This document shows positions 1 through 45,187 of a stretch of DNA of 64,000 nt, one piece after another (positions within the stretch are counted from its first letter, which is position 1; each line of letters starts with the position of its first letter). Both the position numbers and the translations under genes were made by a program. The notes beneath the pieces are model-generated. The model saw only the letters and a program-made list of their open reading frames with translations, did not search any database and was not told the DNA's origin. Origin of the DNA: Lenzites betulinus (lineage: Eukaryota > Basidiomycota > Agaricomycetes > Polyporales > Polyporaceae); assembly GCA_022264855.1 (NCBI GenBank), contig JABYQU010000009.1, positions 62,001 through 126,000 of the forward strand. Direction: 5' to 3'.

Positions 1-954
1 GGGGCGCTGCTCCTGAGCTCTGTCGAAAAGCACGTCGAGCTCGCGCAAGGCGCGATGGAGCTCGCGCGGGTGTATGCCTTGATTGCCGTGTTCCATCCAC
101 TCGCTCTCGTACTTCATTCCGAGGGCTGAGGCTTCGTTGATGATGGTATCGCGCACGTCGGAAAGTTCGTGAAGGCGGTCAAAAACCGGAATAACCTTTC
201 CTTCGGCGGCTGACTTGGTCAGCTTGCTTGAACGGAGATCTTGAAGCAGTTTGGACAGCATGGACTAGGTATCAAGCATCAGTCTACTCGCTCGCCTCGA
301 CCAGCCAGTCGCGAAGCAGACGTACCTCTGATGAAAGAATAATGAAGTATTGCTTCCAACAAGTGAAATTGGCATATGCCCGGCGGTTGTATCCACGGGC
401 TTTGTCAAGCCCTTGTCTGAGGGCTGGCATGCCGCGGTAGAATTGAACACGGCTGAGGATATCCAAAGAGTGGTCGTTCACACGCGCATCGTACAAGACC
501 TGACACTTTCATGGACTATCAGCTATACATGACAGGTGCGGGCGCGCCGACTTACTTCATTCATCAATTCCTCCACTCGAGCTAAGGCAGCGTTGTCGCT
601 TTGAATGCGTTCCATGAGTTGGGTAACCAAGCAAGTGTTAGCATGCCCATGACCGGCGTAGGTCTGTCGCATGGTGGTGGAGACCGCTTGGAAATCATTC
701 TTCAGGTTGGTGCGATACTGCTTGTTCAAGAAGCTAAGACGATTGGCCATAGCAGATGTCCAGGACGTCCTGGAAGCGGGTAATTGGAGCGTCTGTCTCA
801 AGCTGATGTACGTCAAGCAAACCGCCGGCAACGCTACACAGAACAGAATGATAGAAACATACTTGGAGAGGGTCAAGTCAAACTCGACGCAGGCGATACG
901 AATGTTCTGCTCCTTCATTTGAATGTCTGCAAGAGCGAGATCTACGTCAGTCAT
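1..954 (-). CDS. X1: uncharacterised helical protein, paralogue of X2 (3' end cut by window)
   Basis: Function unknown. The start is ATG at 954; an upstream in-frame GTG is less likely because a TATA box lies just above it. I read exons 954-863, 802-556, 499-326 and 264 to the window edge, with introns at 862-803, 555-500 and 325-265. The apparent membrane segment in an unspliced reading is intron 1. The spliced protein is rich in charged helical segments with no signal peptide or membrane span. It aligns along its length with X2 (18265-19578): a shared NK-YR motif, a later PVF segment, and an R-EL-RAL-L-D segment near the end. All three introns sit at the same positions and phases as in X2. 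It is transcribed away from A and the inverted repeat. The C-terminus lies outside the window. Confidence 0.7.
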
Positions 955-1017
955 GTTTGGGATATCGAGATTGGCGTGAAGTAAGGAGTAGTGAGGTTCA
1001 AGGACAGAAGAACGCAC

Positions 1018-1026
1018 TTATATATG
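1018..1026 (-). promoter_or_regulatory. TATA box of X1
   Basis: On the minus strand this reads TATATAA, about 65-70 nt upstream of the X1 ATG at 954. That spacing suits a short 5' leader. Assigned by motif only. Confidence 0.45.
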
Positions 1027-1491
1027 CGTAGAAAGTGAGCCACTCACCAGGTGTAGGTAGGCAATTGGCCGTCGAACACGAGGTGTCAGCGGCACGACCC
1101 GACCAGGGGTGGTGGGATTCATCACAAAGGAGTAGTGTTGGAATCGAGAGTGCATGATAAAGGAATCGTGCCGCAAAGTCGGGTGTGATCGGCGGTGAGT
1201 CAATCGGTGGAGGAGGAGAAAGAGAAAGAGCAAAGGTCTTTGGTTCGGCAAACCTTGCACTGAGAAATCGACGGGTTTCCATACACGGCGCACGTACGAC
1301 TACGCGCTTACGCGGGCCGGCCGATCTGCATACAAACTCCGGGACAACGGCGTCGATTGTGCTCATAGGAACTACAGTCACTCTGACATGATCATTCTCG
1401 GTCGACAAGTATCATGGGGGCGTAACATACAACAAGATTGTATTATTCGTACAGAGAGCGCACGCACATCGCGTGATAAGGGCCTTCAACA

Positions 1492-2654
1492 CTACTCCTG
1501 AGCTGCCTCGCGTGCTACAGCAAGCACCCGTTCGAGGTACCACAATACCGTACCAACTACCTTCAAAAGAAGACGCACGACACGTCTTTCGAAGGTGGCC
1601 ACGATAAACTTGATGCGGTGAAGGACGCCGAAGAACTGGAAGAGCATTCCCGGGTCGAAACGGGCGCGCATGGTGAGGATGAAAAGGGTGAACTCCGACA
1701 CGATGATGATGAAGATCGCAAAGATAATGCCGGCCACAATTCCCCCGCCGGCCGAAGATATATAGGTGGAGCTTGGAGGGGGGGCATGGAAGTCGTAACC
1801 GGTGGCCCGCACGCGCATCTCACTGATCCTGAACGGTGTCTGAGTGGGATCGTGGGCCTAGGTGTCCGTCAGTCGTGTGCGTTGCTACTACGGAGATTAT
1901 TCATACCTGGGTATGGACCTTGACAAATTCTCCAAGAACACCCTCGTCGACTTTGATCCCTTTCTCCTTCAAATACCCTGGGGTGAGAATGAGCGGCGCA
2001 TAACGCTGTAGAATGGGTGTTACTGACACTCGATGGCATCCTTGAAAATGTAGCGCAACTTCTGATGGGTGACTGCGACGCGCGGATGGTATTGACCATT
2101 GCGCTCGGGAGCCACCTGGCAGGTAAATAAGCCCGCTGAAGTATAGGGAGAAGATGTGACATACCACCAGAAGCGCAAGGCTATCGGGGTTCTCAAGCTC
2201 ACGTACATGTCCCCTGGCCTGAGGGATGTCGCCAGGAATTGCTTCAACAGTGACCGGATCATATGCGCCCGGAAGGGTGCTATAGGTAACCTGCATGACG
2301 CTCGTCAAAACGTAGAAGGGAGGTTGTATGAAAGGGGGGCTGACAGTCGATGTAAGAGACATCTCGCTGGGCACTACAACCGTCGGGCGCTAGGGGGCGA
2401 AGAGGTATTCAGAAGGGAAACCGATGGCCCGTTACACGACGTACCTGTTGAGTGGCTGACCGTGAAACGTTCTCGGGGGAAGAGCTGCCCCCGGAAGCCG
2501 GTCCCTCAGGAGGCTCGCTGGAGATGCGCCTCGAGCCGTTATGTCCAGATAACAATGTATCAGGCGCATCCCGCGCAGGAGGATCGACATATGTGCGGTG
2601 CTGGACAGAGCGGTCGGTCGGCGCGTCCGTGAGCACATCCGTGTAGTCTGCCAT
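1492..2654 (-). CDS. A: single-pass membrane protein, chimeric paralogue of B
   Basis: Function unknown. Five exons: 2654-2445, 2389-2165, 2115-2028, 1977-1907, 1857-1492 (210/225/88/71/366 nt), giving about 319 residues. The plan matches B (204/228/85/74/228) with the same phases (0,0,1,0). The first 53 codons lie inside the inverted repeat and differ from B at only two residues (14 D/N, 20 R/H). After that the two proteins diverge abruptly. Exons 3-4 remain alignable, both with a V-T-x(2,3)-L-R motif and a WY pair made across the third intron. Exon 5 encodes a hydrophobic span of about 25 residues (roughly 235-262), then a basic amphipathic tail, so the protein is probably membrane-anchored near the C-terminus. 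It is divergent from E across IR-L, which holds its promoter. Confidence 0.72.
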
Positions 2655-2869
2655 AGCGTGAAAGCTGCAATGAGAGGAGGAAACGACATGCATGTGAGCG
2701 AGCTGCAAGACGCGGAAGAGACGAGGGATATGTACTATGGGGTGTGTGGGCGCAAAGTGCAGAAGACGAAAGAGCATGAACGGCGTCCTGAAATAGGGAT
2801 GCGAAGCCGGGGAGCTCGAACGTACCGCGTTATAATCACCATGCACCGATCCTCGCACTGCCCTAGAGT

Positions 2870-3610
2870 GTGCTCGGAGTGGCGCTATCCGAGACCTACG
2901 GATTGAGAAGGGTGAAGGGTGAGCACGCCGCACGGCGGTCAGCTTCATTGTGCTCGCAATCGCCCTTCCCGACACACGCGTTGAACATCGGCGAAGGGCG
3001 GAATACACGTTCGGACTCGTGCTCGGAGATTCCCGCCGAATTAAGGGGTACGCGTACGAGCGTGGTCGAAATATCGTGCTGAGATCCGCACCCTGATGAC
3101 CCTCGGGGCGCGCGTTTGTGAAGAGTTGGCGTACACGGTCGGAGGCGTCGTGCTCGGAGTGGCACTGTCCGAGACCCGCTGTATGAATGGGTAAGCATAC
3201 GTATGTGCTCGGAACGACCGCACTGGAGCCATACCTCGACGTCACTCGAGAAGAACAAACGATCCAGCAAGACGTTTGTGAAGAGTTAGCGTACACGTTC
3301 AGAGTCGTGTTCGGAGTGGCACCGGCCGATCCCAACGAATGAAGAAGCTTACGGAGATACTTGAAATTGCCGTGCTCTGTGATCTGCGGCCCAGTCGCTG
3401 TTCGAGAGAGACAAACGATCTGTCGTGTGTTGGTGAAGAGTCGGTGTCCACGGTCGAAGTCGTGCTCGGAGTGGCACTGTCCGTTATCCGATACGACGGG
3501 TCCAAACGCTTGTCATAGACCCTCACGAGGTCTACACGAGGCTCCTCGTGCAGTACCTACCCTGGAGACACAAACGACGGCGACCGCACTGGAGAAGAGC
3601 ATGGAGAAGA
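2870..3610. repeat. Degenerate ~155-bp tandem repeats inside IR-L
   Basis: The block GTGCTCGGAGTGGC, or a close variant, recurs near 2872, 3019, 3149, 3303 and 3464. The last three are preceded by GTGAAGAGT and a GTxCACG element, and interleaved with ACAAACGATC near 3250 and 3411. Spacing is about 150-165 bp. The mirror copy lies at about 14413-15153 in IR-R. Being between two divergent promoters, the units could bind a regulator. That is inference. Confidence 0.6.
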
Positions 3611-4419
3611 GCAGGGGCCGCTACGGTTCATGTTAGGACCTTATCGGGTGGCACAGGGAACACGACGTGCTTACAGTTGAGAGCAAAGCGGCCGAAAAAG
3701 CGGTCAATGTACGCCACGATGCCGACACGAGGATCATTCCGTGCTGCACTGGATACCCGCGTCGACAGCTATACGAGGGGAAGTTAGTCGATATACTGAC
3801 TCAGTGAGAGAGAAACTCTGTGACTGGACCTTGGGAGCCCGTACGCTCATGGATAGGCGTTGCATCGAGCATTAGGTGCTGCGTCGCCGGCCAGTCAGGT
3901 CGAGATCGCTACCCGCGCGTGGGTGTGAGCGGTAGCGTATCGAAGATCCTATGTATCACGAGGCCTCCGACGCCGTTACTTCTGCGTGGCGGCGATGATA
4001 CAGGCAGAAGGGGCGTGTTCGGCGCGGCCTTTCGTGCGCCCAAAGTCGGCCCGATATGTCTGGTATGGCGTAGTTTTTCGTTGACAGCAGGTCAGCGTCA
4101 TCACGGCCTGCACGTGGAAACTATATCCTTACATTTACGCTCTCATGCACTGCGAGGTTGCTGCTTGCGGCTTGTTGGTACTTCTGCTCGCGGGTTCAGA
4201 GTAAGCGTATAGGCGCCTCACAGACCCAGAATCCGAGCGCACATTGTCACACGTCACGCAAGTCGTAGCTGGATTCGCGCGAATCGGGGACCCCGAGAAG
4301 TGACTCCCGTAACGCTTTCCGCCTCACGCAGCGCGTTTCCTCAGCTAACTCACTCCCGCCATGCTGCCAACCGGGTGGTCGTCTCCCTATCCTTTGTCTT
4401 CGACTTTTGGGGCTCGCTC

Positions 4420-4430
4420 ATATATCATGG
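4420..4430 (+). promoter_or_regulatory. TATA-like element upstream of E, duplicated upstream of F
   Basis: A CATATATC element about 100 nt upstream of the E ATG lies within the identical repeat. Its mirror copy sits at 13593-13603 upstream of F. E and F should therefore have the same core promoter and transcription start. Motif evidence only. Confidence 0.35.
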
Positions 4431-4523
4431 CTCTTCTTCGAGAGGCCTCACTCATCGCCCAGCCGCGCTACTCCCCCCAAACATCCAAGTTACTTCCCTT
4501 CCCTGCGATCTACGGCTGGCACC

Positions 4524-5455
4524 ATGTTGCCCCCTACTTACCATACCCGTGAGTGTTATGTATGCCGCGCTAAACTACGTCGTACGCATTTGTTTGCTGT
4601 TATAGGTCTTCAGCGTGCCTTGAATGACATCATGCTGCGAGACCAGACTGTAGTACAGTACGAGGACCTCGTTCGCCACAGTACGTTTCCCTTTCTTTTC
4701 GCTGAGAGTACCTCTGACGTCATCTATTTTAGTTTGCGACCAGTTCAAATCGTCGAACTCCGTTTACGGGCGCCGATACAAGGACCACATACAAGTCGCC
4801 GTGAAAAGAGAGGTTGGCCCATCGTCGTTCGCGTCTCCGCTGCGGGCTGATATTGAACGCGCGCCCGCAGATTCGTGCGCGGCGCATTGCCTTAGATGCG
4901 CTTCATCCAGGCCGTCTAGTCATCACCCCAATCGGACTACGTTTGTAAGTAAGCATCTTCGTTTAAGTCGGCGCGGGCTCATCGGCTTTTCCCAGTTATC
5001 GCGAATGGGGATCTATTCCTCTGTATGACCGGAAGGATGCACGTATGAGGTACCTCACTATTCGCCAGGTAAGCCCCCATGCCTCTCGTATGACACGCTC
5101 TTCATTCAACATATCCCTACAGCTCAACATGCACGCCTGTGCGCTCCGTGATATCCTCAAAGAGATATCAAATGATATTGCTGTATACTATCATGATAAC
5201 GACAACATGCACGATCATTCCACCCTGCCCAACGATGTATGCGGCAGTACTACGTGCCTCCAATATATCGATACTAACGGTTCTTTAGGTCTACACCGTG
5301 TGCAATAACGTCAAGCGACTGCAAGACCAGGTGAGTATACACATGCTTCGATGCCATGCGCCACCCTCTCACCACCACAGAATACGGAGCTTGAAGTAGA
5401 GCTGAACCTTCAAGAAGGCAGGAAGCAACGTCTTCTTACAATCGTGGGATTCTGA
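4524..5455 (+). CDS. E: uncharacterised protein, diverged paralogue of F
   Basis: Function unknown. Eight exons: 4524-4548, 4606-4680, 4733-4812, 4871-4944, 4996-5068, 5123-5236, 5289-5330, 5381-5455 (25/75/80/74/73/114/42/75 nt), 185 residues. F has exons of 31/75/80/77/82/114/42/264 nt with the same phases, so exons 2, 3, 6 and 7 are equal in length. In the segment from exon 2, 9 of 25 residues match F, including RLQ and Y-x-DL. Exon 4 shares a TP-x-GL motif. I chose the ATG at 4524 because it gives the phase-1 first intron seen in F. An upstream ATG at 4429 gives an overlapping frame that does not splice correctly. The C-terminal exons look helical or coiled coil. No signal peptide, membrane span or homeodomain is visible. 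Confidence 0.75.
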
Positions 5456-5919
5456 ATGGTGGTACGATGGGGTTGTCTGTGATGTAGTATCCTACGATGT
5501 AACCGTAATGTTTCTGTGTATTTCTTAGCCGTGTATGACGAACATCTTGATTGGCTCATATCGATATCGGCTGCTTGTCTGCGAAGACCTGAGCCTCGCC
5601 GACATACACCCACGTGATTCCTAGCTGTGGCTGGCGTGGCTAGCGTTGTGGGAGACTGCTGCAGTGAGAGCACCGCTTCACAGCTAGAGTTGGGTCCACA
5701 ACGTAGGACTTGGGTACACACCGTCGTGAATGCACGAGCAGGTAGGATATTGCTATATCAGATGACGGCTAGCGTGATATAACAGCATCGTAATAGACCG
5801 GGCAATACACAGGCTAAGAGAAGACGAGGAGCGAGAAACTAGAAAATAGTACGCGCCTGTTTTACTCGTCAGAGAGTCACGCTGGATGGTATGACCGAAA
5901 GTAACGCACCATTTGATAC
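5456..5919. other. Intergenic, E to G
   Basis: Region between the convergent ends of E and G. No gene, tandem repeat or RNA gene recognised. Confidence 0.5.
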
Positions 5920-6936
5920 TTAATTAGAAGTTCCGTTGGAGGGAGAGCGCGTGTCCTGGTGACCCTTCACTTGCTGGTCCTTGTCGCGCTTCTTCGTGCG
6001 GCCCTTGTACGTACGCATAGTGTCCTTCGTCACCCAAGATGGCTCCCCGTTGGCACAGAAGTTCAGGATGTAGCCTCGTAACTGAGGGTGAGGATGGCAT
6101 AGCTCGATAGAGGTCCACTGGGAAATACCGCTGCGGAGCCACGCCTGCTTCGCGCCGTCCGCGCGGGTGTGAACGTACAGGTCGCCGACACGGGCAGCCG
6201 TAAGATCCGGAGGCGTAGACAGGAGATCACGGCCGTTCGAAGCGAACCACACAGTTTTCTCGTTTTGACTACGAATACCTCGCTCGTAGCGAGTAATCTG
6301 CAGCGGGCCCCTGTGTGTCGTGAATGCTTGAAATGAGTCACCACTCTCCATTCGACGTATTGACCTACACAGGTGAATCTTGAGAGCAGCCAGAGCCGGC
6401 CGTCCCTTCGGACGAAGGCAGGGAGGATTGCAACTTTCGCGACGAGGCGGATTCGTCACAAGCGGGGGAAGGTATAAGTGCTTCCTGGGAGGTGCCTCCC
6501 TTGCCGTCAGACTGACCTGCCTCAGCACCGAGGGGCATGATAGAGGTCGAGTTCGGCGATAGAGGGCGTATCGAGTTATTCGGTATTTCAGGACGCGTGG
6601 GAACCTTGTTTAAGTATGTGAGCACCACTCGTTCGGAGGTGGACAGCTCGTCTACGTACTTTGTCATACATTGGGGGTAGGGATTTCCCGCGGACCGGTT
6701 TGGCGCCTGCATGCGACAGAGGCTTCAAACTACGGAGAATGAGTAGTGAGCAGCCAGTTACCGTTATATACATCTCCCACTTACACGCTAAGGACTCGTT
6801 GTTGTTGACGAAGATGACGATGGCGAAGGATCACCGACTCTGAGCTTAGGGGCCGGCCTTCATCGCTGGCCAGTAGAACAGCCGGATATGGGGTGAACCT
6901 GGCTATGATCGTGACGGGCGTTCTGGGCTCGAACAT
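5920..6936 (-). CDS. G: uncharacterised protein in the repeat loop
   Basis: Not recognised. The likely start is ATG at 6936. The 5' part splices over an intron ending near 6730, an intron near 6655-6600 is likely, and one near 6370-6330 precedes the last long exon. The N-terminal exon is short and basic. The middle is low-complexity and rich in Ser, Pro and Gly. The last exon, ending with TAA at 5920, has a compact region with several Trp residues and a lysine-rich tail, which could suit a nuclear or nucleic-acid-associated protein. It is a single copy inside the loop with no mirror partner in the window. Exon boundaries are tentative. Confidence 0.45.
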
Positions 6937-7455
6937 GGCGGCTTGTGCACTGACACTGTGGAGGTAGCGTACTGGAGATGTTAAAACAAAATGAAGGATC
7001 CTCACTGTTTTATATGTCCGGTCAAGCAAGTGCATGAACAATGCTCGATTGCTGACCGAGACCTATAGCTCGTAGGGCGGGGAGAGGAATCGACCCAGTC
7101 CAGCGACAAAAAGATTGAAGGCCGAAGACAGAGTCGCTTTGTTACAAGTCGTGTGAAGTAGGCATCGTTGAGCCCGGCACCGGACTGTGAGCGTTTTGCT
7201 TTGTTTGGTTGTTACAAAGCTCACCGATCTGATTTGGGATCGCCTGGAACACGAGGCTACTGAGCGATCAAGATTGTCGTGACGTAGTACTGAGCTCAAG
7301 CGCTCAAGCGCTCAAATCTCACGCAAGTCACTGAGGATGCATAACCGAGGCCAGCTGTGTTACTGGCCACTGCAAGGTCTTAACAGCACGGAGAGACAAA
7401 GAGCCGTGTATTACAAATGAGTGTCGGGCCGCTGCTACCGCCAGGAACATCCGAG
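6937..7455. other. Intergenic, G to D
   Basis: Upstream of G and downstream of D. A short direct repeat of AAGCGCTC lies near 7298. Nothing else identified. Confidence 0.4.
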
Positions 7456-9821
7456 TCAGATAGGTAACGACAGATAGGGGTACAAGAGAGTGAAAGAGAG
7501 TGTGACTCCGGAAACGCTATATATATCGTACAGAATATAGGGAGCATTGAAGGCAGAGGCAGAATGATGCTGGGCGAAATCGATCAGAAATACAAGCCGA
7601 GGGGGTTGTGTCGGCCGTTGTACTCTTCGGCCAGCCTGGAATACTAGTTGGTCAATAAGAGCATCGTAGAGAGAAGAATCACCCAACTTGACAATCTCTT
7701 GGTCGTGTGAAAAATCGTACTCGATGTCCTCGCGAACGAGCAGCTGCTTCCGGTCGTAGGGATGAAGGCCTTGGAGCCACGCTGCGTCATAAGCATTCCG
7801 AGGGAGCTGCTTCACAGGGGGACGCCTGGTCGAGATCTTGTCTGAGTAGAAGCGACTGTGTGGTTGGGAACCGGGGGTGTTCTTGTTCACTTCATTCATG
7901 CGGAGTCGGTGGTAGTTGCTGTCAAACACGCGGAGCCAGGGTGTGATCAAAGCAGCGCGCCATTCCTTCCTGAATACCCCGTACTGCGCGAACCCGTTTG
8001 AATGATCCGATTCATCCGAACTCATGCCTTTCACACCAAGCGCCATGAGCATTGGCACATGACGCCGGAGCGGGGCATACGAATGCGCGACAGCTAGGCG
8101 ACGATAGTACAACTGCGACATTGAAGGTGAATCGAAGAGCGAATCAAAATATATAAGAGGATGCTCACATTACGCTGACGCTCCGATCGATTGAGAAGCC
8201 TCTGCCGAAGACGCAACGTCTTCTCATCCAGACTGGAGGCCTGCCATTTGGTACACAAGTACTTGAGGTGCCCGCCGAACAGTTCCGCAACTCGTTCCTG
8301 AGGTGCCGAAGGATTCAGTGCGATGAAATTTTCGACGAACAACTCGATGATGGATTGATTCCACAGAGAGGTCGGCGGCGATCGGAGGTCGGGAAGAAAC
8401 TGCTGGATGGTGCAACATGGGCCTGCATGAGGGTCGTAGTCATCTACCGCCTCGTCCTTGGGTAGCATATCACTCGTGATGGGGTCCTTAGCAGTTTTCC
8501 GCTTCATCAGCTGACGAGTAAGGACTCGGATTTTCTCCTGATGAGCCAGATACGCGTTAGTGGTATCACTCGAAGAGTGAAGTCGATCAGTCTCACAGCT
8601 AGCCCGACATCGTCAGGATCACGCGCAGTGGGGAGTCCTTTGAGCTTGGTTTCCGACTCGCGCCCACGACGAGGCCGGCGGGGGATGGGGATGAAAGGGG
8701 GAGTATCCACGTCCATGGGGGTATGCTGATTTTCCGTGGGAGGCGCGGTATTGGGAGGGGGAGGGGGCGGAGCCGAGGGGGTCGTGTGTTCAAAGAAGCC
8801 TCTTGCCTGCAGAGTAGAAAAAAACTGTGTCTGTTGGTCCATCAAGGTCACCAGACGGGAGATGTTGTGGTTCATTTCGTGAAGGTCATTCCGAATGTAA
8901 GAAACTTCGGACTGGGTCGCGAATGTCTATGGGATGTCAGTCGATTAGAAGGCAATGACAATCGTTGAGCTTACCGAAAAAGGCGGCTGGCCTTGGGGCG
9001 GTGATTGTCTCCTAGGGCGACCTTTACCTTTGTCCTGTCGGCGGCGATCTCTCTCACCGCCCTCGCTGCCGCTAAAAAGGCTCGAGCCGAATTCGTCGTT
9101 GTCGGCATCATCGCCAGTAGAGCCACCTTCGCCGCCGTCCGTTGTCCGTCGTGGAGCTTTACCTCGCCGATTTCCAGTAGAACCGAATCCCCCAGAGCCA
9201 TTGGCAGCGGCCTCGCCATGAGGGTTGAGATCGCGTCTCCCACTGCTCGACAGAGCATGATGGACGCGATCTGTACTAGTAGACGTAGCAAAGGAGCCGG
9301 CGTTGGGAAACATGTCCGGCGTGTCGAACATGTACGTCTGCGGGTGTATTGTGTTCGGGTACATGGGCATGAAACGCGCATTCCCGGCGGCGGCGGGAGT
9401 CTGGAAAGGATCATCTCGCGAACGCTGACGACGACGCTTGAAGACGGTGGGCACATCTTTGCCTTGCATGTTGTCGTCGTCGTCGTCGTCTGCATCGAAA
9501 CCCTGTGCCATCCTTCGTTTCCCGGCCGCTGCGGCCCCGCGCGAATTGTGCGTCTTCCTGGCGGTGGGCGACCTCCCGTGAGGCAAACCTAGTATGATAT
9601 AGGTTGTCAGATGCAGGTGTGGTTCCTCAACATGTCCTCAACGTATACTAACCGGAAGGGCTACCAGCGGGCGTCGTGGACGGCGATAAGAACGGATCAT
9701 TGCGGATGAGCGAATCTGTAAGACTCTAGTCAGCGAGTAGGTTCGGAGAATGAGCCTGGGAGAGCCTACTGAGGAGGCTCGCGCCCCCAGTGTTGGATGT
9801 GCTGTTTGTTTCCTGAGACAT
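7456..9821 (-). CDS. D: large charged, proline-rich uncharacterised protein
   Basis: Function unknown. Six exons: 9821-9770, 9715-9653, 9588-8975, 8926-8597, 8537-8169, 8112-7456, giving about 694 residues in a continuous frame. The start is ATG at 9821; the first two exons are very short and supply the frame. The N-terminal half is disordered: a run of Asp residues, a basic K-R-R-R-Q-R segment that could be a nuclear signal, then Ser/Gly-rich sequence. A short helical or coiled region is followed by a proline run of six. The C-terminal half is denser, with a GMSSDES motif and an R-x-W-R segment followed by conserved-looking aromatic positions. The C-terminal style recalls uncharacterised proteins abundant in agaricomycetes, from general familiarity only. 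Single copy in the loop. Confidence 0.6.
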
Positions 9822-10208
9822 AGTCGGAGGGGGGTGAATGAGGCGGGGGTGGGGTGAATGTTCTTCAAGTGCACGGAGCAGGGTTTTTGGGGGAAACACG
9901 CACGACAAAGGAACTACACGCCACTCGGAGGTCGGACGAGATGAACACGTTGTTTGGAACATGATCCCCTTCCTGCACATTGTGAACAAAGACTCGTAGT
10001 TCCGGGGGGAGGGGGGTACATTGCGGCATTGAGCGCATGTTGAGCTACAAAGGAACACCATAATGTGCATTTCAAACCATCTAAAATATCAATTCAGTCG
10101 CGCAGTAATCCCGTCACTCACGAAGATGTGATTCGATCCGGAATGCGGACACGTAGAGGTCGCGAATCTACAGATATAGTGCCCGGGATAAACATTATAT
10201 GCGTGTGT
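9822..10208. other. Intergenic, D to C
   Basis: Short interval upstream of D and downstream of C. Contains G-rich tracts near 9828-9855 and 10001-10016. No gene seen. Confidence 0.4.
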
Positions 10209-12077
10209 CTACAACTCATGTTGGAGGGGCCCGATGAAACCATCACGTCTTGCACCGTCTGTCAGCTCGGGTAGAAGAGACAGGAGTAATTCGCGTAGGA
10301 GACGACGTGCGAGTCCCATCGTAGCAAGCGTGGCTGAAGAAAGGAAAGCGGCAGCGATGAACCATGCATCCTTGCACCAGACCGAGGTCGCCGAAGCGGC
10401 CTGCGAGGAAATGGAGGTTGCGCGCACAATCTGAGGAGATCGACGTCAAACAGCGCGGTGTGATGTTCGATGTGGATTCCACTTACATTAGATAGCACAA
10501 CTGACCAGACAATCGTCCACGGCACAATGCAGCACACCCAGATCATGATGGCGAGGGCGACTAAGCCGACAAAGATATCGCTAAGAGACCTGCCAGGCTG
10601 AGTCGACTGGTTAGTAGGAATTCGCCTTTTCTACATTTAACAGTCGTACCGCAACGGAGTGGACAAGGTCCACAACGGTATCGCCGAAATCGCCGGTAGT
10701 ATCATCGTGTGCTACACATGATAAGTATTGGGTGACCATGCATGGCGGACAATTACTCACTGATTCTCGCTCGCCAGATCTTGATGTACGTCTGCTGCCC
10801 TCGATCTGCAGACCCGGTTGCTATATAGCTGATCTTGTCTTGGATGACTGACTACGTTCTCATGAGTAATTGTGTGCTCAACAATGTGAGCAGACGTACA
10901 GTGACAGCCTGAACGATGTCCTCTGTCCTTACGATGTCAGGTAGAAGCCATAAGACACACAATGGTACTTACCCCCGTGTTCGAGAGTCTGAAAGAGCTC
11001 GCCGGTGGACATCTCCCACACAGCAACTTTCCCCGAAGTCGTGCCAGAGACGATGGCGTGCCCCCTGTGGACAAACTCGACCTGAAGCCTGTGCCGCGAG
11101 CTCGGAGATTTGTCGAACTTGTACAACCTCTTCGACTTGGCCTTCGACTGAGCGCCCAGCACGTAGATGTCGACGCCATCCTTAAGGTTATAGAGAGCAA
11201 CGAAGCGATGGTTGGGGCTAATGGCGGCGCCACCTCTGCAACGCACGTTCAGCACCTACGAGTGGTGTACGGATACAACATGGGCTCACATGTTCGGCTT
11301 CGTGTGCGGCAACGCTATGTGCCATCGAGACGTGTGGTTGGCGGTGTCCCAACAGCTAGAATATCGGAGAGAGATGAGATAGGACGGTGAAATGCACGCC
11401 AACCTACCTGATTCCGTGCGAAAGGTACGAGACAATCAAAGAGGAGCCACCGTCGTGGAATTTCAGCGCCACGGCTCGCAGACGTCGCTCGAGCCCACTT
11501 CCAGGTTCAGCATTCCCCTCAGGCTCCGGTGGAGTTGGGAGAATCATCGCCCCAGAATACGTGTCTACAGGGGATTTAGCTCATTATTTATAAGACTGAA
11601 AGGGTACATATTACTCTGGCTCTTCTCCCGTGTGAGATGGACTTGCTCGCCCATACCGATGGCCAACCTGCCGGAGGGAGCGTCGTAATCGAGACAATAG
11701 ACGGGGCCTCTGGCGCCCAGGTGAATCTCATGCTGCTCGCTGAGCATCTGCTGGCGATCAGCAAACGGCCATACGTGATGTGTATCAGTACGTACCAAGG
11801 AGAAATTGTGAACTTGGAGCAGGGATCCGTTCGCACAGCCTATGATAACCGTGTCGGGATGCGTAGGATGCCAGAGGACACTGTCAATAGCGCTCTTGAA
11901 CAATATTCTGTACAGCAAGCAGCCTTGCAACGCATTCCAGATCACGAGGGTGTAGTCGTCACCCCCGCTCGCAAGGTACGCTCCGTCGGGAGAAAAAGCG
12001 AGGCAGTTTATTGTGTCGCTGTGACCGCCCCTCAAGTAATGTTGCTCGGTGTAGGCTGTGATCGAGAAGTTCTTCAT
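10209..12077 (-). CDS. C: WD40-repeat protein with C-terminal membrane segments
   Basis: Starts at ATG 12077. Exon 1 encodes WD-type repeats: an early GHSD followed 20-odd residues later by LVIWN, then an SVLWHP strand and a VYCLDYD strand. Later exons (11567 downward) add a repeat ending in VAVWEMSTGE near 11010 and a last blade with IATGSAD and KIW near 10800. After that come two hydrophobic stretches encoded near 10590-10500 and 10375-10320, so the propeller is probably tethered to a membrane. At least five introns of about 45-55 nt are needed. WD40 propellers are protein-interaction platforms; the partner here is unknown. It lies in the loop between D and F, on the same strand as both. 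No mirror partner. Confidence 0.72.
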
Positions 12078-12361
12078 CGCCCAAGATCACAGGAACGTGA
12101 GGAAAGAATGGGAAGAGCTAGTTGAAATGCCCGGCGGGGAGGCGTGCGTAGATGCCCAGCACCCTCAGCGTCCTCAGGTATTAGTACTCTGTAAGGACAA
12201 TGGAGGCTGAAAACACGTTGACTGCACGTGACTGCGGTACCCCCGAGATTCGGAATCGGCCAATAATCCGCGTGCGTAGCCTTAAGCTGCTACGCGTTCA
12301 GCGCTGTGATGTTCCTGGCCGAGATGATAGATTCTGACAGTCGTATACATTTGAAAAACCC

Positions 12362-13496
12362 TCAAGCCCCTACGGGAACATCATCTGGCATCCCGTCACT
12401 ATAGTAGTCGTCTTCTTCGACCTCAAATGCCTCGCCTTCGCCGTTCATAGCCCACATGACGCCATCAGTAGACTCGATACTGGCAGAAACGCTGCGATGC
12501 TCCAGCGAGTACCCTTCGTCGTCGTCGTCGTCGTCGGAGGTGCTTGCATCGATATCCTCCATCTCCTTGCGCATGACGCCCAACTCGACATTGACGTCGT
12601 TAAGGCGCTGGGTAAGATCGGAGTTCTGCGAGTGGTGGTTAGCCAGATAACGCGGAGGTGTAAGCTGTAATCATTCACGTCAGAGCACAAAGTCTCTTCA
12701 GTTTGGAGGTACGAGCGCACCTGGGTATAGATAAGTCAGCTATGGGCCTGATAATAGCGGAAAGTAGCAGCATACAGTTTCTATGAGGTTCATCACATTC
12801 AGGGCGTTCACATCCTCCGCGTTAAACAAGCTGATCGTCTCCTGGATAGACGTGATGATATTGACCACGTTGGCATATTCATTGATGGCCTGACAGATGT
12901 CAGAACGATAATCAAGACATGCGACGAAGCACTTACTGCAGAGCGGGATGGACCAACATGCCTCCAGTTTCGAGCGCGCACTTGTCTCTGAGGAGGCGGG
13001 GCACAATAATTGCCGTAACTGTGTATACGTGAGTACTAAGGCCGGTTTCCGAGTGAAAAGCCCACTAACAAGTCGAGTCCCGTCGGTGTAAAGAGCACCC
13101 GAATGGGGAGGGAGGTCACATCGACATCAATGCGACCTAAAAACAGCTATTACCGTGGTTTTAGACATATACGCTTCACATAAAGCTATCTCGAGTAACC
13201 TCACCTCTTCGGCGAGCGCATCGCGCAAAGCTGTGCGAAATGGCGACGCTCTGTTGACGGAACTCCGCAACATATAGGGTCGTACTTAGGACGCATTGTG
13301 AGCGCGGTCGTTCAGGAAATTAAAATAAGGAAAATTACCCAGGCGAGGGAGGTCCTTGTACAGAACAAACGCTTGCTTATCCCTGATCTTCGCGTGGAAC
13401 ACATGTTGAAGACCTGGTACCGATGAGCGAAGGCATCAAGATCAGCAGAGAGTATGAGTTCTTACGTTCATAAAGAAACAACGGGGCGGAGGACAT
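12362..13496 (-). CDS. F: uncharacterised protein, diverged paralogue of E with acidic tail
   Basis: Function unknown. Eight exons: 13496-13466, 13413-13339, 13284-13205, 13146-13070, 13018-12937, 12889-12776, 12720-12679, 12625-12362, giving 254 residues. Exon lengths and phases match E (see E). The ATG at 13496 lies 29 bp inside the loop from the IR-R boundary at 13525; an upstream ATG at 13596 runs into a stop. The last exon is much longer than in E and adds a coiled segment followed by an Asp run and a strongly acidic tail ending at 12362. The two proteins are alignable mainly in exons 2-4 and the start of exon 8. The promoter is the same sequence as that of E. Confidence 0.75.
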
Positions 13497-13524
13497 CGCG
13501 AAGGAAAGCGATAGAGAGCGAGAG

Positions 13525-15529
13525 GGGAAGTAACTTGGATGTTTGGGGGGAGTAGCGCGGCTGGGCGATGAGTGAGGCCTCTCGAAGAAGAGCCATGATA
13601 TATGAGCGAGCCCCAAAAGTCGAAGACAAAGGATAGGGAGACGACCACCCGGTTGGCAGCATGGCGGGAGTGAGTTAGCTGAGGAAACGCGCTGCGTGAG
13701 GCGGAAAGCGTTACGGGAGTCACTTCTCGGGGTCCCCGATTCGCGCGAATCCAGCTACGACTTGCGTGACGTGTGACAATGTGCGCTCGGATTCTGGGTC
13801 TGTGAGGCGCCTATACGCTTACTCTGAACCCGCGAGCAGAAGTACCAACAAGCCGCAAGCAGCAACCTCGCAGTGCATGAGAGCGTAAATGTAAGGATAT
13901 AGTTTCCACGTGCAGGCCGTGATGACGCTGACCTGCTGTCAACGAAAAACTACGCCATACCAGACATATCGGGCCGACTTTGGGTGCACGAAAGGCCGCG
14001 CCGAACACGCCCCTTCTGCCTGTATCATCGCCGCCACGCAGAAGTAACGGCGTCGGAGGCCTCGTGATACATAGGATCTTCGATACGCTACCGCTCACAC
14101 CCACGCGCGGGTAGCGATCTCGACCTGACTGGCCGGCGACGCAGCACCTAATGCTCGATGCAACGCCTATCCATGAGCGTACGGGCTCCCAAGGTCCAGT
14201 CACAGAGTTTCTCTCTCACTGAGTCAGTATATCGACTAACTTCCCCTCATATAGCTGTCGACGCGGGTATCCAGTGCAGCACGGAATGATCCTCGTGTCG
14301 GCATCGTGGCGTACATTGACCGCTTTTTCGGCCGCTTTGCTCTCAACTGTAAGCACGTCGTGTTCCCTGTGCCACCCGATAAGGTCCTAACATGAACCGT
14401 AGCGGCCCCTGCTCTTCTCCATGCTCTTCTCCAGTGCGGTCGCCGTCGTTTGTGTCTCCAGGGTAGGTACTGCACGAGGAGCCTCGTGTAGACCTCGTGA
14501 GGGTCTATGACAAGCGTTTGGACCCGTCGTATCGGATAACGGACAGTGCCACTCCGAGCACGACTTCGACCGTGGACACCGACTCTTCACCAACACACGA
14601 CAGATCGTTTGTCTCTCTCGAACAGCGACTGGGCCGCAGATCACAGAGCACGGCAATTTCAAGTATCTCCGTAAGCTTCTTCATTCGTTGGGATCGGCCG
14701 GTGCCACTCCGAACACGACTCTGAACGTGTACGCTAACTCTTCACAAACGTCTTGCTGGATCGTTTGTTCTTCTCGAGTGACGTCGAGGTATGGCTCCAG
14801 TGCGGTCGTTCCGAGCACATACGTATGCTTACCCATTCATACAGCGGGTCTCGGACAGTGCCACTCCGAGCACGACGCCTCCGACCGTGTACGCCAACTC
14901 TTCACAAACGCGCGCCCCGAGGGTCATCAGGGTGCGGATCTCAGCACGATATTTCGACCACGCTCGTACGCGTACCCCTTAATTCGGCGGGAATCTCCGA
15001 GCACGAGTCCGAACGTGTATTCCGCCCTTCGCCGATGTTCAACGCGTGTGTCGGGAAGGGCGATTGCGAGCACAATGAAGCTGACCGCCGTGCGGCGTGC
15101 TCACCCTTCACCCTTCTCAATCCGTAGGTCTCGGATAGCGCCACTCCGAGCACACTCTAGGGCAGTGCGAGGATCGGTGCATGGTGATTATAACGCGGTA
15201 CGTTCGAGCTCCCCGGCTTCGCATCCCTATTTCAGGACGCCGTTCATGCTCTTTCGTCTTCTGCACTTTGCGCCCACACACCCCATAGTATGTATCCCTC
15301 GTCTCTTCCGCGTCTTGCAGCTCGCTCACATGCATGACGTTTCCTCCTCTCATTGCAGCTTTCACGCTATGGCAGACTACACGGATGTGCTCACGGACGC
15401 GCCGACCAACCGCTCTGTCCAGCACCACACATATGTCGATCCTCCTGCGCGGGATGCGCCTGATACATTGTTATCTGGACATAACGGCTCGAGGCGCATC
15501 TCCAGCGAGCCTCCTGAGGGACCGGCTTC
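13525..15529 (-). repeat. IR-R: right arm of 2,005-bp inverted repeat
   Basis: Inverted copy of 2494-4498, with six mismatches and no indels by eye. It spans from the 5' leader of F to codon 54 of B and holds the bidirectional B/F promoter. Five of the six mismatches lie in the outer 240 bp, next to and within B exon 1. Confidence 0.95.
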
Positions 15530-16404
15530 TGGGGGTTACCCTCCCCCGGAGTTGGCCTCTGATGACAGTGATGTAAGCGAGTCCTTCGATGATGGATCGT
15601 TCAGGCTCTCATTTTTATCCCTTCGCAGTGCGAATTCCTACCTCTGTCCGATGACGATGGCGTTGGTATACTCATGGACCAGCTACGCTCTGCGCGACAG
15701 TCCTTCTCACATAGCGAGACTGCGCTCTGTGATCAGGCAGAAGACGTGCCCATTTTGCTCCGAGCTGATGACCTTTCCACTCTTCGCCTGCCCGTGACGA
15801 TTACCACGTCCACATTTCTTGTCGCTGTCCTCCGCGAGCAAATGTCGCTAGTCGCAGTGAGTTCATGCGATCCCACGTCTTGACATAATGTCTTACCGAT
15901 TATGCGCAGTCTCTACACGCCGTTGATGGCAGGATTCCCAATGTCGTGATCACTCCCGATCAGCTGCGACGGCTCCTCATGAAGGCCGTAGTATGTATGT
16001 ACATCTCGCATGGATCTTTCAAGTTCCCCTCTAACATATGTTAAGGGTATATCGATCGCGAGTGCATTGCGGACATCGAGCAAGCCTACGTGGTGTTTGT
16101 TGGCAGCGAGTACGGGCAAGTACGTCAGCTACTCGTGTTCTGTCATCGGAAGTGTGTACTTACTGTATACATATAGCCTATGGATCACTCCTGCCCCGCA
16201 AGCGGTGTCGGCGATCTTCGTGCACTCGCAGATGGCCTGAACGACTTGGACACGACGATAGACGATTTCGACGCGTATATGTTCCACGGGGGACGATATG
16301 CACCGTCGTCCTCTATTGTGGTCTTAGAAGTCATCGCGCACGCGCTCGTCGGGGCCGGCATCATGTGTCTCATGATTGCCTATTTCCCCTCCATCATCAT
16401 GTAG
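15369..16404 (+). CDS. B: C-terminally anchored membrane protein, chimeric paralogue of A
   Basis: Function unknown. Five exons: 15369-15572, 15629-15856, 15910-15994, 16046-16119, 16177-16404, 272 residues. The third intron has a branch-like CTAAC and a TTAAG acceptor. Donor 15995 was preferred over 15991 because it keeps a clean frame in exon 4 and matches A. Residues 1-53 are shared with A, with two changes, because they lie in the repeat. The rest is diverged. Exon 2 adds an acidic segment with C-E-F-L-P-L-S-D-D. Exon 5 ends in a hydrophobic stretch of about 27 residues reaching almost to the C-terminus, which suits a tail-anchored protein. A has its membrane span in the same exon but continues about 55 residues beyond it. 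Divergent from F. Confidence 0.75.
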
Positions 16405-18264
16405 CTCTGAAGGTCTCTAAGAATCCTCATTCTTGTTTGGTGTGAATTTGTGTGTTTTCGATCTTACAAATGGTGATATGATATATGTAGGATAATCGCA
16501 CGTACATGCAAACGAGTGTGATGAAAGAGACTCTCAAATAGTAAGTTGTGATATGGATGAGTTGATGAGACGTAAGTGTCCGAGTATGCATTCACTGATA
16601 ACATGACATATAGGGCAGATAGCAAGGCAGCTAAGACGACGGTAATCAGGAGGGGAAACGAGTGAGATGATAGCAGAGGATAGCGAGAGTGTAGCTTTTA
16701 AACAGCCAGAGAAGTTGCGATAGAAAGTAAGTACAGACACTGAATCGTATCGTCTGCTAGCTCTACGTCCGGGAGGCTCGTTTGACAAGACCCTCACCAC
16801 GGAGCTTCCATGTTAGACACATGCACGATCTGCTCAGATAAACATGGGACTCACGAGGATCCAACATTTTGTACGCCATCGAGACCTGCTACGAGGGGGT
16901 TCGCGTTCGCTTTCGACTGCGTAGGTGCCTGCCCTCAACGACAGCAAGGGATTCTCGTGTCCGCCACGATCCTCGGGGGCCAGTGCGGATATGGAGGATT
17001 TAAGTTTAATCACTTCGTCTCCGAGGCCCGTGTGTATCGTGTGCAACCTTTGCAAGAGAGACCCTACCTCCTCGTAGACGGTTGAGAGGACTCGTAGACG
17101 GGTTCGGAGGGTATCGAAGTAAACGCGTTCCTCCTCTTCACTCCGAAAGGCAACATCGGTGACGAATATATCGCTATCCGACGTCGTAGAAGATAATCAG
17201 CTGCGAAAACCATGGGTGAAAGTGTCAGCATACCTCATCGGCTTTCGCCAACATGAACGCCGTTCACGTTGGGACAAAAGGGAAATATCGAGACGTCAAT
17301 GCAGTCGATCAGAACAATGGCGATGGCGCTCGTCGATATGTTCGGTGCGAAGAAGGCACGGAGGGAGGAAAGTGATCAAGAGGGAGGGGAGCTGGCCAGG
17401 CCGCCCTCCGGCTGTGAGACCTCCATATACTAAAGCGCCCGCTCGGCCAGCTGCACCTTCACCGCGTAGCATTGATTGGTCTCCATGGCCTTCCATGGCC
17501 CACCATAAATGGTCTAGGTAAACGGCTGATATCGAGGCAACAGCGGCCGATGAATCGGGACGCATGAAGAGACGCTCATTCTGCAAGTACAAGCGAGGGC
17601 TAGAGCGCACTCTGAATCAATGACTAGATGAGTATTAATACTAGATGTTACCTCAAACGGTGCGTCAAGGTACTCGCGCTCTCTGAATTCAGGCGCGAAT
17701 CGTGATGATTAATCGGAGTCGTGAACTTCAGCAGAAACAGGAGTCTTTCACGGAGAGTCAGACGATGGTGAGAGCTTGGCGCGGCAAAGACCGAGATTGG
17801 TAACACAAGCGCCAAGCGCGGCCCAGCGACGGAGTGGTCTGTTCGTCCTACTCTACAATGTGGGCGCCCTTGGATGCGTTTCTTGCGCTCCAGAACTAAT
17901 CGTCTTTGTATGCTATGACAAAGTAGGACTGTGTTACTCATCGAAGAAGACACTGTCCGCGAAGCGAATACCAAGATGTCAGTGCCGTGGGTTGGTCAGT
18001 GTCCATTGTTGCGACCTATCCCTCATTTTGGACATGCCACACGATGAGTATCTGCAAGAATTACCATGGAATACGGAGAGATCGCGCCGAAGCTGCGCAT
18101 GCTGTCGGGTCGCGTGTGCGACTCGTCTTGCATTGTTATGAGTGGCACAACCTCTTCCAGCCTATATATTTACAGGTGTGCCGGTAGCCTTGCGCTCTCC
18201 CAGCTTTGCAGCCCTCATCCCCTTTGCAGCACCTTACTCTCAAAAGAGCCCACGCCCTTTCGTC
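16405..18264. other. 1.9-kb interval between B and X2
   Basis: The mirror interval between A and X1 is only 537 bp, so roughly 1.3 kb has been gained here or lost there. Several short open frames exist on both strands, but none has convincing splice structure or a domain. No transposon ends recognised. Confidence 0.4.
18160..18172 (+). promoter_or_regulatory. TATA box of X2
   Basis: CTATATATTTA lies about 100 nt upstream of the X2 ATG, followed by a pyrimidine-rich stretch that would suit the start of transcription. Confidence 0.45.
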
Positions 18265-19578
18265 ATGGCTGACATTACTATCGATGAGGCCCTTCGTCTG
18301 GCCATGTCCCAGGAAGAAAGCGTACGAGACGCTATTCTGACGCTGGACGAAGAATTTAGATCGTTAGTTGTCTCGCGTCCACGATTCGCCTACTCAACGT
18401 CTTCTAGCTTCAGAGACTCTTACATGCTCCCCAACAACGCATCTCAGTGGGCACCTTTGTTCGCGGCTCGCGTCGCATCGCACAACAAAGAATATCGTCA
18501 CCGCATCAAACAAGACCTGCACGTCTCCACGCACAACCTGAAACATCTCTACTCTGAAGGCGGCGACGGCGACGACAACAAGAGGTCCAACGCTATGAAC
18601 CTCCTGTTATCAATGATTATCGGGGCATTGAAAACCAATCGCACTCTCAACAGGCGACTAGACGAGGTTCGTCCGCGGTCGTGAGTGCATCGCTCTTTCT
18701 AACACAGTAGTGTATTTCCTTCAGTACATCAATCTCCATACGCATCTTCTGCAAGGAAACTTCCTTTCGCTTGCAGACAGAGTTTTTATCCGCAAGACCC
18801 TCCCCGACCTCGAGCGTTGTCGGGAAAAGCTAGCGCGCGACGCTGTTGGGGTCAAAGAGCTGTTCGACGCCTACAAACCGTGCTTGTACGTCATCTCGTA
18901 CAAGGTTCGTCACCTTATCGCCGCGCGTGGGTGTTAGCGTCAACTAATTATTTCATAGCGCGAGCTGAAGAAGTGCGAGGAAGCTCTGAGCGCACGGAAG
19001 ACTACAAAGGGGGACATTGAGAGAGAGACAGCGCCAGTCTTTCGCATTCTGTCCAGGCTCTTCGAAGACCGCAAGAGCATATTCGAAGAGTCGACGAAGC
19101 TTGGTCACAGTCATGCCGTGGCCTGGTTCTCGCTCTCTACGGATCGCGTCGATCCCGCCACACTCCGACAAGCTCTCGCGCAATACGACGTACTTCGGGA
19201 TCGTGTCTGGGCGCAGAAGGCCATCCACGACGCTAGCGTCAATGTCATCAAGGTAGGTTTTGACCCACTTTCTCGTGTGACCCCCTTGACACGCACATCA
19301 GGATATCGCGGTGGAAGGGGAATTCGCCCCTTCCACTGTTCCTGGCGCGGACGGCAAGGAGGTACCGATCAACACTATGCGCCAAGCATTCGACGTCTAC
19401 GAACGCATCTGTGCGTCTTGCTCTGGGATGGTTCAGGTTCGTTGTTCTCTCCAACGTTGACGTGTACGGGATGATTCACTGCGACCTTCAGCTCGCCGAT
19501 CCGATCATCGAAACGCTTGTAGAATACCTTGCCGTGCTCCGTCTCACCGAAGCTCATGTTCTCGCTGGGTTAGCCTAG
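18265..19578 (+). CDS. X2: uncharacterised helical protein, paralogue of X1
   Basis: Function unknown. Six exons: 18265-18362, 18408-18666, 18725-18904, 18959-19252, 19302-19436, 19492-19578, 350 residues. The first intron (18363-18407) is 45 nt, so the frame stays open if it is missed; it was placed by matching X1. The protein is mostly charged helices, with heptad-like stretches in exons 3-4. No signal peptide or membrane span. X1 shares exon phases and alignable motifs (NK-x-YR, PVF, AL-x-x-L/Y-D-V-L) but overall identity is low. Transcribed away from B and the inverted repeat, mirroring X1. Confidence 0.72.
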
Positions 19579-20100
19579 ACAACTCTGTCTCCTCAAGATC
19601 ATATACGTTGCATATCTTTGTACTAGTACAGTGGGGCGAATGAATGCGATTCTTGTTGTATAAATACGCTCGCCGGGTCCAAGATGGTCATAGGCGCCCT
19701 CCAGTTCCGAATCCGCAAAGCGCCTATATTGCATTTGGCGACTTGTCCTCTTATAACACATCGCGCTAGCCCGGATATTCCCTGTACAGGACCATTCACA
19801 AGTGACCTCACAGTGGTCAATAGGCCCACGTAAGCAAGTTTCTTCCGTTCCTTCATTTGAAAGTTGACCGAGTTGTAAATAGAGATCACCGCACAACGCG
19901 CCCCGACGTGCTCTCGTCAGTGTTAGGGCTAATATTCATAGCACGGTTATGTATTCCGACCACCTATCGCGTCGCCTATCGCGTCGCGAATCGCGACGCG
20001 ACTTGGTTGGTGAATCGCAAGACGATTTGGACTGCGATTGCAATTAGCGCCCAAGGAGAACATGGCGAGAACATTGCAGAAATCATGTATTATATTTGCG
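19579..20100. other. Intergenic downstream of X2
   Basis: No gene recognised. Near 19965-20030 there is a cluster of short TATCGCGTCGC and CGCGACGCGA words, a palindrome-rich patch. Confidence 0.35.
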
Positions 20101-20119
20101 TCGTGTTATGCATCTACGG

Positions 20120-20610
20120 GCAATATTCGTAATGGCTTCTGGCATGTTCGTGCTGTGTTCTGTGAGGGAACATGTCCATAATGTTCAATATATTTTCTGA
20201 ATGTCATTTTGACATGTTTATGATCGAAAAATGGCAAGAACAGAGTGAATGTGAATGGCATGTTTCGCCGGAAACCACGCAGAGAACACCTGAACGAGAA
20301 CATTCCCCATTTGTCCATCATGTTCTTTCCATTTTTGGTGACATATCATGGCAGAAATATAATACATGTCGGCGCCGTGTTCTTCGACCATGTTCTTGTC
20401 GAAAACATACCGAGAACATATGTTACATTGTCAGGATTTTATTGACACAAAAATGTCAAGAATCCCGCCGAGAACATTTACGCTATGTCTCTGATGTTTC
20501 TGGCATGTTCTATGATCGAAAATGGCACAAAATGTTTATCATTTATCGCCGTGTTTTTGCCATGTTTTTCGCGGAAAAATCGGTCATTGCCCCCTGTGTG
20601 ATGCATCAGA
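20120..20610. repeat. Degenerate repeat tract with alternating CATGTTC and GAACATG
   Basis: About 490 bp in which CATGTTC, TGTTCT, GAACAT and GAAAAATGGCA words recur on both strands at irregular 20-60 bp intervals. More AT-rich than its surroundings. Open frames here are by-products of the repeats. It may be a decayed inverted-repeat element. Confidence 0.45.
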
Positions 20611-20799
20611 GTCCCTACGGTACATAATGCAATAGGCCGCAGGCCATTTACCGGTACCTGATACATCAGAACTACAACAGCTGCTGGGTGTCATGCACAA
20701 TGTGGGATTTTCTAGCTCACGGTATGTTCCACTGTCGCCTACTCCCCTGGGACCTTCCTGACACGGCAGAAGGACCATTCAAGTTCCTGCCGCCCCAGT

Positions 20800-22374
20800 C
20801 CCCTTTCTAGACAACACAGTCTTTAACCATTTTCGATACTATGCGAGCTGCGTCACGAACTTGACTGTCCTAGCTCACGATTATTCACAAATGACGCTAG
20901 CATCTGCGGTGTCTCGCCTGCCGCCTGGACTCTGCCACCTTTTCCCCAGGTTACTGCAACTCATCTGGATCGAAGGCAAGGCCTGCCTTCTTCGCGGCGA
21001 CATCGGAGGCATTTTGCGGCAATCCACCTCCATCGAGAGCATCACGCTTCGGTTCGATCACGGCGAACACCCCTTCCTGGACGACATCACCGTGGAGCAC
21101 CTCAGTTTCTGCAGGGATTCTGTTATCCACCTCTGTGCCACCGTCTCCCATGCGAAGCCCGCACTCGAGCGCCTGGTCCTCGACATCCCGCTCACTGTAA
21201 GGGCCCGATGGCGACCAGAGGAGCGTAGACGTGAGACGAGAGCGAGCAGCAAGGCCAGAGGGGGGCAAAGAAGGTGTTGGTTCGGCGGGGAGCCCGAATG
21301 ACTCCCCGAGGGCTAAATACAAGCAAGGACGATCGACAAGATACGGGCGCCGGGAGACTGACGTGTGGCGCGGGGGCCTGGATACATGAGCTGGGCAGTA
21401 CGAACGTCGGGGCGGGTGTTCAGTAGAGGAGAGGACGAAAATGGTAGGTAAGATCTAATCTACGAGTGGCCATGGTAGGTAACGCCATGCGGCTGTTACA
21501 CTCACCATACCGATCCCGTCCGCCATATTAACGGGTTTCAAGCGCCTCAAATGTGTTGAGCTGCAAGCATGCATCAGCGGTACGCTCCTCCACTCTCCTC
21601 TCTTGTCCAGGCTTCAAGCTAACTCATGCTTTCGCAGACGACTCGTCTCTGGGCGGCCCGGTGTTCTTGAACCGCCCTCAACTCACCGGCATCGAACGGT
21701 TGGAGGTGCTGTGGACGCCGGCATGCGACCTTCGTTCGCTCCCACGGGACGTATCTCTCGACAGCGTGCATTATCTGGCCGTTAGATCAATGGAGCAGGA
21801 GCCGCAAAGCAGATTTCCCGCCGATGTCGCCCGCCTTACCACGTTCACAACCGCGCACCTAACGTCAGTCGAGATATACTTCCTCAACCTGAGCGGCACC
21901 TCCCTCTATTGCGGCAGCTTCCGCGATTTCATTGCACCTCTCACCGCCCGTGGCTGCATCAGCCACGTTTCTTTGGTTCTCACAGGCTACTGCTTTGACT
22001 TCTCCGCACATGACTTGCACACCATGACTCGTGCGTGGCCAGCGCTTGAGACTCTCAACTTGAGTTTCGACGTTGCACAAAGCGGTGTTCTTCCAGATTT
22101 ACAGAACACTATCCCCCACATGCCTCGACAATGCCCTCATCTCAGATACCTTCATCTTCCGGCCATCACCACGCTCGTCGAGCGCCAGACAACGTTCACG
22201 ATACCCTACACACCTGATAACCAACTCCGCCACCTCTCATCGGACGTTCTTATGGTGCAACATGGAATCCTGGACATAGCGTTCGGCCTACGCTGGGCTT
22301 TCCCCCACCTAGTCCATTTTGGTCCGCCCGGTGATGCGACCTGCGGCCCGCTGAGACCGGAAGGGTACAGCTAG
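20800..22374 (+). pseudogene. F-box/LRR-like protein relic
   Basis: Two blocks (about 20830-21200 and 21540-22374) read as leucine-rich, strand-loop sequence of the kind found in basidiomycete F-box proteins, for example ERLVLDIPL and LETLNLSF. They are in different frames, separated by about 330 bp with no coding character. No start codon or F-box region precedes the first block, which runs back into the CATGTTC repeat tract. It looks 5'-truncated and interrupted. It could instead be a gene with a long unusual intron. Confidence 0.42.
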
Positions 22375-24104: not shown

Positions 24105-24110
24105 CGTGGA

Positions 24111-44975: not shown

Positions 44976-44980
44976 GGAGG
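44976..44980. repeat. Target-site duplication GGAGG, left
   Basis: The five bases before the left LTR are GGAGG, identical to the five after the right LTR (46100-46104). Five-base duplications are typical of LTR-retrotransposon integration. Confidence 0.85.
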
Positions 44981-45187
44981 TGTTAACTTTAGCGCCCGTT
45001 GGTATCAAGCGCCTCCGCTCGGTCCGAACAGCGATCGATAGATTAGATCGAGTTCCCTTATATACATGGCTCTGAAATGTATGTACGGTACGCGTTTGCA
45101 ACGAGACCCCCATCCCCATCGCTCTCTCTGTCGGTCTCAAGCCAAGCGCGCCGCTCAACGTCCCTGCGGCAGCCCCGAAACTTCACA
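44981..45187. repeat. Left LTR, 207 bp
   Basis: Begins TGTTAACTTT and ends CTTCACA. Matches the right LTR except for one base (CGGTCC here, CAGTCC there), which implies recent insertion. Contains TATATAC near 45060 as a possible promoter. Confidence 0.9.

Follow-up and report, generated by a model that had tools for sequence, protein, structure and literature searches.

The closest described systems to the locus treated here are large CACTA/EnSpm transposons, among them the 20.5 kb soybean element Tgmt* (PMC2613891) and the elements of Chondrus crispus, which measure 16-20 kb and hold 4-5 open reading frames (PMC6431247). Termini of the form CAC..GTG together with 3-bp duplications are consistent with EnSpm/CACTA, and in mushrooms and rusts a TET/JBP gene is carried by fungal EnSpm elements and by Plavaka elements, the latter with termini TGT..ACA or CATCA..TGATG (PMC12730594). 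Giant transposons of the Starship type, of which eight are reported from the basidiomycete Tremella fuciformis, are the other large fungal elements to be considered (PMC13066641). Here, a stretch of 64,000 nucleotides of the wood-decay mushroom Lenzites betulinus (the window; its contig is termed C98) was analysed, in which three gene pairs stand in mirror order, X1-A-E and F-B-X2, around a near-identical inverted repeat. The locus is, with a probability of about 0.85, the interior of a giant CACTA/EnSpm (tnp2) transposon in which old gene pairs are mirrored, the repeat arms are homogenised in cis and both versions of each protein are kept.

The features of the C98 element are listed in Table 1, where coordinates are window positions and negative numbers lie to the left of the window. 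The termini are of the CAC...GTG type (CACAGGGGG), and the 3-bp target duplication TGA/TGA is present on both sides. The frame to the left of X1 matches Transposase_21 (1.2e-12, 47.9 bits against a gathering score of 28.6) and is a predicted transposase. Given the terminal inverted repeats, the TGA duplication, the subterminal direct repeats and the tnp2 frame, the mirror locus makes up most of a 26.5-kb CACTA element. The first-pass annotation had taken the six genes for a locus of its own, a view that is not supported, since all six lie inside CACTA transposon ends. Two further elements with both ends were found in the same genome: one on contig C87 (395636-426160, 30.5 kb), with the same kind of ends and the target duplication AAT/AAT, and one on contig C1 (285708-325756, 40 kb). 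All three carry 5'-CAC..GTG-3' terminal inverted repeats. The motif AACATG occurs in 7 copies in the subterminal repeats of the C98 element and in 9 copies in those of C87, against 0.25-0.35 expected, and in 0 copies in those of C1, where no other motif was sought. The two insertions with target duplications, on C98 and C87, suggest that these elements have been mobile.

Like CACTA/EnSpm elements in general, those of Lenzites combine CAC-type terminal inverted repeats, a 3-bp target duplication, a tnp2 transposase and repeated subterminal motifs. They differ from the known large CACTA elements in their size of 26.5-40 kb and at least ten genes, in the mirroring of three gene pairs about an internal inverted repeat, and in subterminal repeats that are single blocks of more than 400 bp, near-identical at the two ends. 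With Plavaka and the TET/JBP-carrying EnSpm elements they share the wider transposase clade and the presence of an added gene, whereas the termini agree with neither TGT..ACA nor CATCA..TGATG and the extra genes are others (no search was aimed at TET/JBP). Starships are likewise large and gene-rich fungal elements, but they are moved by a tyrosine recombinase captain, whereas the Lenzites elements, in which a captain was not searched for, have CACTA ends and a transposase of the tnp2 type. In the titles and abstract openings of the open-access literature searched, no description of a mirrored giant CACTA element in fungi was found.

The two arms of the internal inverted repeat in the C98 element are 2014 bp long and 99.55% identical, and an independent alignment gave 2003 identical positions of 2011. 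Nine positions differ between the arms, each of which continues into different genes or sequence on either side. As a query against the 37.4-Mb genome, the left arm matched itself and the right arm only. The block starts inside exon 1 of A and B, after about 56 codons, and stops short of the start codons of E and F by 22 and 25 bp, respectively. The mirror order around a near-identical repeat, as proposed in the first-pass annotation, was confirmed with six open gene models; the repeat had also been described as purely intergenic, which does not hold because it contains the first ~56 codons of A and of B. Within the block, at window 3113-3483 and in the right-arm copy, a unit of about 58 bp recurs three times, imperfectly and in direct orientation, at a spacing of about 157 bp.

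Exons are predictions from sequence, and all six models are open with GT-AG introns. X1 and X2 have the same exon number and intron phases (2,0,0,0,0) at 23.6% identity, and E and F have the same exon number and phases (1,1,0,2,0,0,0) at 22.8%, so that the wide distance claimed between the proteins of a pair is evident in both. The accompanying claim that pairs keep exon count and phases stands for X1/X2 and E/F and fails for A/B, where the phases are 0,0,0,1,0 in A and 0,0,1,0 in B; as A has one intron more, the exon count is not kept. The A/B identity of 42.4% in this element is inflated because the N-terminus, lying inside the repeat, is common to both, and beyond the shared first ~56 residues the two are strongly diverged. 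In A, which is 301 residues long, one strongly hydrophobic segment spans positions 223-241. The X2 model is identical to the public Lenzites betulinus protein C2E23DRAFT_883097 (350 residues). A first model of F with a 43-base intron was dropped when the sister gene F' revealed the proper acceptor.

The element on C87 was recovered from the genome with X2, F and B as queries. All six genes are present in it and open, in the same mirror order as in C98, together with counterparts of G, D and WD40, the three unpaired genes that sit between E and F. Over the two elements 12 of 12 gene models are open, with one GC donor in an intron of X2', and the intron phases are constant within each family save for one extra intron common to A and A'. 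The internal inverted repeat of the C87 element is 1528 bp long and 99.0% identical, its arms differing by substitutions and indels; it starts about 36 codons into A/B and extends over the start codon of E/F. Its subterminal direct repeats agree throughout the first 431 positions, and the last 51 hold 15 differences. At C87:396822-397934, in the interval that separates the subterminal repeat from X2', there is an extra coding-like stretch which is 70% alike to C65:781957-783073. Allelic copies in an unphased assembly were considered as an explanation for the two loci and rejected: of the flanks, one was compared, C87:386001-395635, which would face the right C98 flank, and it had no match in C98:32001-126000.

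Genes pair with their counterparts in the other element rather than with their mirror partners. The cross-element identities were 42.7% for X1-X1', 44.0% for X2-X2', 40.8% for E-E', 32.7% for F-F', 38.1% for A-A' and 34.2% for B-B', a range of 32.7-44.0%, against 19.8-27.1% between pair members (X1-X2 about 24%, A'/B' 27.1%) with A/B of C98 set apart. In the phylogenetic trees X1 and X1', E and E', F and F', A and A', and B and B' were grouped at 100/100, the A/B tree being made without the first 60 residues of each protein, and X2 and X2' formed one unresolved group with the proteins from Cubamyces and Trametes pubescens. Since the genes pair across elements, the duplication behind each pair preceded the separation of the two elements, and neither member has been lost since; the old divergence of the protein pairs proposed at first is thereby supported, and diversifying selection is not needed to explain it. 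The X2-type proteins of Cubamyces sp. BRFM 1775 and Trametes pubescens are 43-44% identical to X2, about as distant as X2', and the element lineages may therefore be as old as these genera.

Between the two elements the inverted repeats do not align: the score was 25, and 20 shuffles averaged 24.8 and reached 29. Within each element, the arms are 99.0-99.6% identical. Because the genes are orthologous and the repeats nevertheless unalignable, the identity within an element is attributed to homogenisation and not to constraint, and this is the simplest reading of the sequences. Homogenisation of the promoter block had been anticipated in the first-pass annotation, and the C87 element bears it out, its genes being mirrored in the same way around a repeat that is unrelated to that of C98 yet just as self-identical. 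The arms would recombine in cis, by gene conversion or by template switching in repair after excision. Tracts running on into the bodies of E/F or A/B would be lost, both versions of each protein being needed by the element. With less confidence, the outcome might be that each subunit is expressed in two distinct forms at matched levels, the two being most simply partners in a hetero-complex.

It is unlikely, yet deserves consideration, that in each element one arm was overwritten by the other in a single recent event, for example at the last move, with nothing ongoing. An identity of 99.0-99.6% fits this as well, and in three elements the subterminal repeats show the same uniformity, as would be expected had it been established on insertion; on the other hand, the copying would have had to happen independently in two elements at the same borders, and also in three sets of subterminal repeats. 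Strong selection on the promoter sequence itself, which might keep the arms identical over a block that spans a two-way promoter and a coding start, is very improbable and was rejected, as the sister element has the same genes and its inverted repeat cannot be aligned with that of C98. Equally hard to credit is a recognition locus of the host, of a mating-type or heterokaryon-incompatibility kind, in which proteins diversify and promoters convert, with a transposon adjacent by chance. Some recognition loci do show diverged mirror-order pairs and converting flanks, but the six genes here lie between element ends in two separate insertions and the outside DNA is unlike where compared. No homeodomain or pheromone-receptor match was found in the scanned pieces, namely ten window frames, four X proteins, E, E', F, A and B (B', F', A', D and G were not scanned whole), and such a locus was rejected because the scanned sequences held no domain in its favour and transposon ends were present. 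Duplication of one arm by the assembler is scarcely believable given the nine differences between the C98 arms, the substitutions and indels in C87 and the different genes that the arms enter on each side.

The tnp2 frame gave at least 48 matches in the genome, 13 of them with an E-value below 1e-70, C98 and C87 included, and a match to D (12 matches in all) was found within 25 kb in 9 of these 13. The C1 element has terminal inverted repeats, subterminal repeats with 1 difference in 421, tnp2, D, G and two copies of WD40, the latter at C1:297660-302689 in the same orientation and about 4 kb apart. Subterminal repeats were thus self-identical in all three elements with both ends. Single X-A-E cassettes, which had been named as support to be looked for, did not turn up when the genome was queried with B, F, X1, X2 and an X protein of Cubamyces (the genome-wide queries did not include A and E), and the only other clear copy is mirrored too.

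Several observations weigh against homogenised arms in mirrored CACTA elements with old, retained gene pairs. The mirror design was present in two of the five elements looked at, two of which (C44 and C65) were seen in part only. The C1 element has no internal inverted repeat, a weak X-like match only and no clear target duplication, and neither an inverted repeat nor a clear X, A, B, E or F was found in C44:1-20000 or C65:748001-788000. Hidden Markov models of X, A, B, E and F gave nothing below an E-value of 0.01 on the C1, C44 and C65 stretches, the best row being the weak X-like match on C1 at 0.047 (0.011 in a smaller sequence set). The subterminal direct repeats of C98 and C87 aligned slightly above chance (score 33 against a shuffle maximum of 25), ongoing conversion and one-time copying in each element would look alike, the four-row trees have long branches, and the pairing of the proteins in complexes is a prediction.

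Table 1. Features of the CACTA element on C98 in window coordinates
Feature	Position	Strand	Remarks
Whole C98 element	-5944..20598 (C98:56056-82598)	.	26.5 kb; window part 1..20598
Left terminal inverted repeat	from -5944		starts CACAGGGGGCA
Left subterminal direct repeat	-5831..-5397		
tnp2 transposase frame	-2945..-1290	-	just left of X1
X1	1..954	-	gene model; exons 1-3 and part of exon 4 in window, gene end at -318
A	1492..2654	-	disordered N-terminus, first ~56 codons within inverted repeat
Left arm, internal inverted repeat	2488..4501	+	two-way promoter block and start of A exon 1
E	4524..5455	+	eight exons, 185 amino acids
G (frame)	5920..6609	-	relatives near other tnp2 frames
D (approximate extent)	7456..9637	-	low-complexity N-part, conserved C-part 7456-8169
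WD40 gene (approximate extent)	10262..12086	-	hydrophobic tail
F	12362..13496	-	eight exons, 254 amino acids
Right arm, internal inverted repeat	13522..15535	-	includes start of B exon 1
B	15369..16404	+	five exons, 272 amino acids, hydrophobic C-terminus (244-272)
X2	18265..19578	+	six exons, 350 amino acids, all-helical model
Right subterminal direct repeat	20123..20557	+	one difference in 435 bp from left copy
Right terminal inverted repeat	20548..20598	-	ends TGCCCCCTGTG, then target duplication TGA

Outside the element, an inverted pair at -8249..-7656 and -6524..-5945 is 91% identical over 598 bp and its inner copy ends exactly at the left element end; the C98 element apparently inserted at the border of a different repeat. 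An open stretch adjoining the right element end (window 20762-22374) has a weak LRR-type Pfam match below the cut-off (E-value 0.026). Further to the right are a tandem repeat of ~85-bp units at 24100-24721 and a direct repeat of 208 bp (99.5%) at 44980-45187 and 45892-46099.

The predicted model of X is a helical bundle resembling the V domains of ALIX/Bro1 and the corresponding helical part of HD-PTP, with TM-scores of 0.22-0.48 over six rows, and helical bundles in general give loose structural matches. No Pfam match of the ALIX/Bro1 type was found at an E-value of 0.1 for four X proteins, no PDB sequence at 10, and no match in the viral structure library at 0.001 or better, and the predicted likeness is a lead only. 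We infer that the paired subunits stay distinct while the promoters that serve them are kept matched; with less confidence, the members of the A/B, E/F and X pairs may be partners in protein complexes. A more speculative and rather doubtful extension is that the self-homogenising repeat serves as a device which keeps two two-way promoters and a shared N-terminus identical while the three pairs stay different, providing hetero-subunits in matched amounts for a membrane-associated machine in the service of the element (A/B, whose C-terminal region is hydrophobic, E/F and an ALIX-V-like X), perhaps by acting in the movement of membranes or vesicles from one nucleus or cell to another.

A giant CACTA element with mirrored open cargo genes and self-homogenising repeats is a variation on a known transposon type. 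The two sister elements provide a natural control by which homogenisation is separated from constraint, and at least one of the cargo genes is stored in databases as an unnamed host gene. In a mushroom, CACTA elements can reach 26-40 kb and retain an intact gene set, as giant transposons driven by tnp2 and not by a Starship recombinase.

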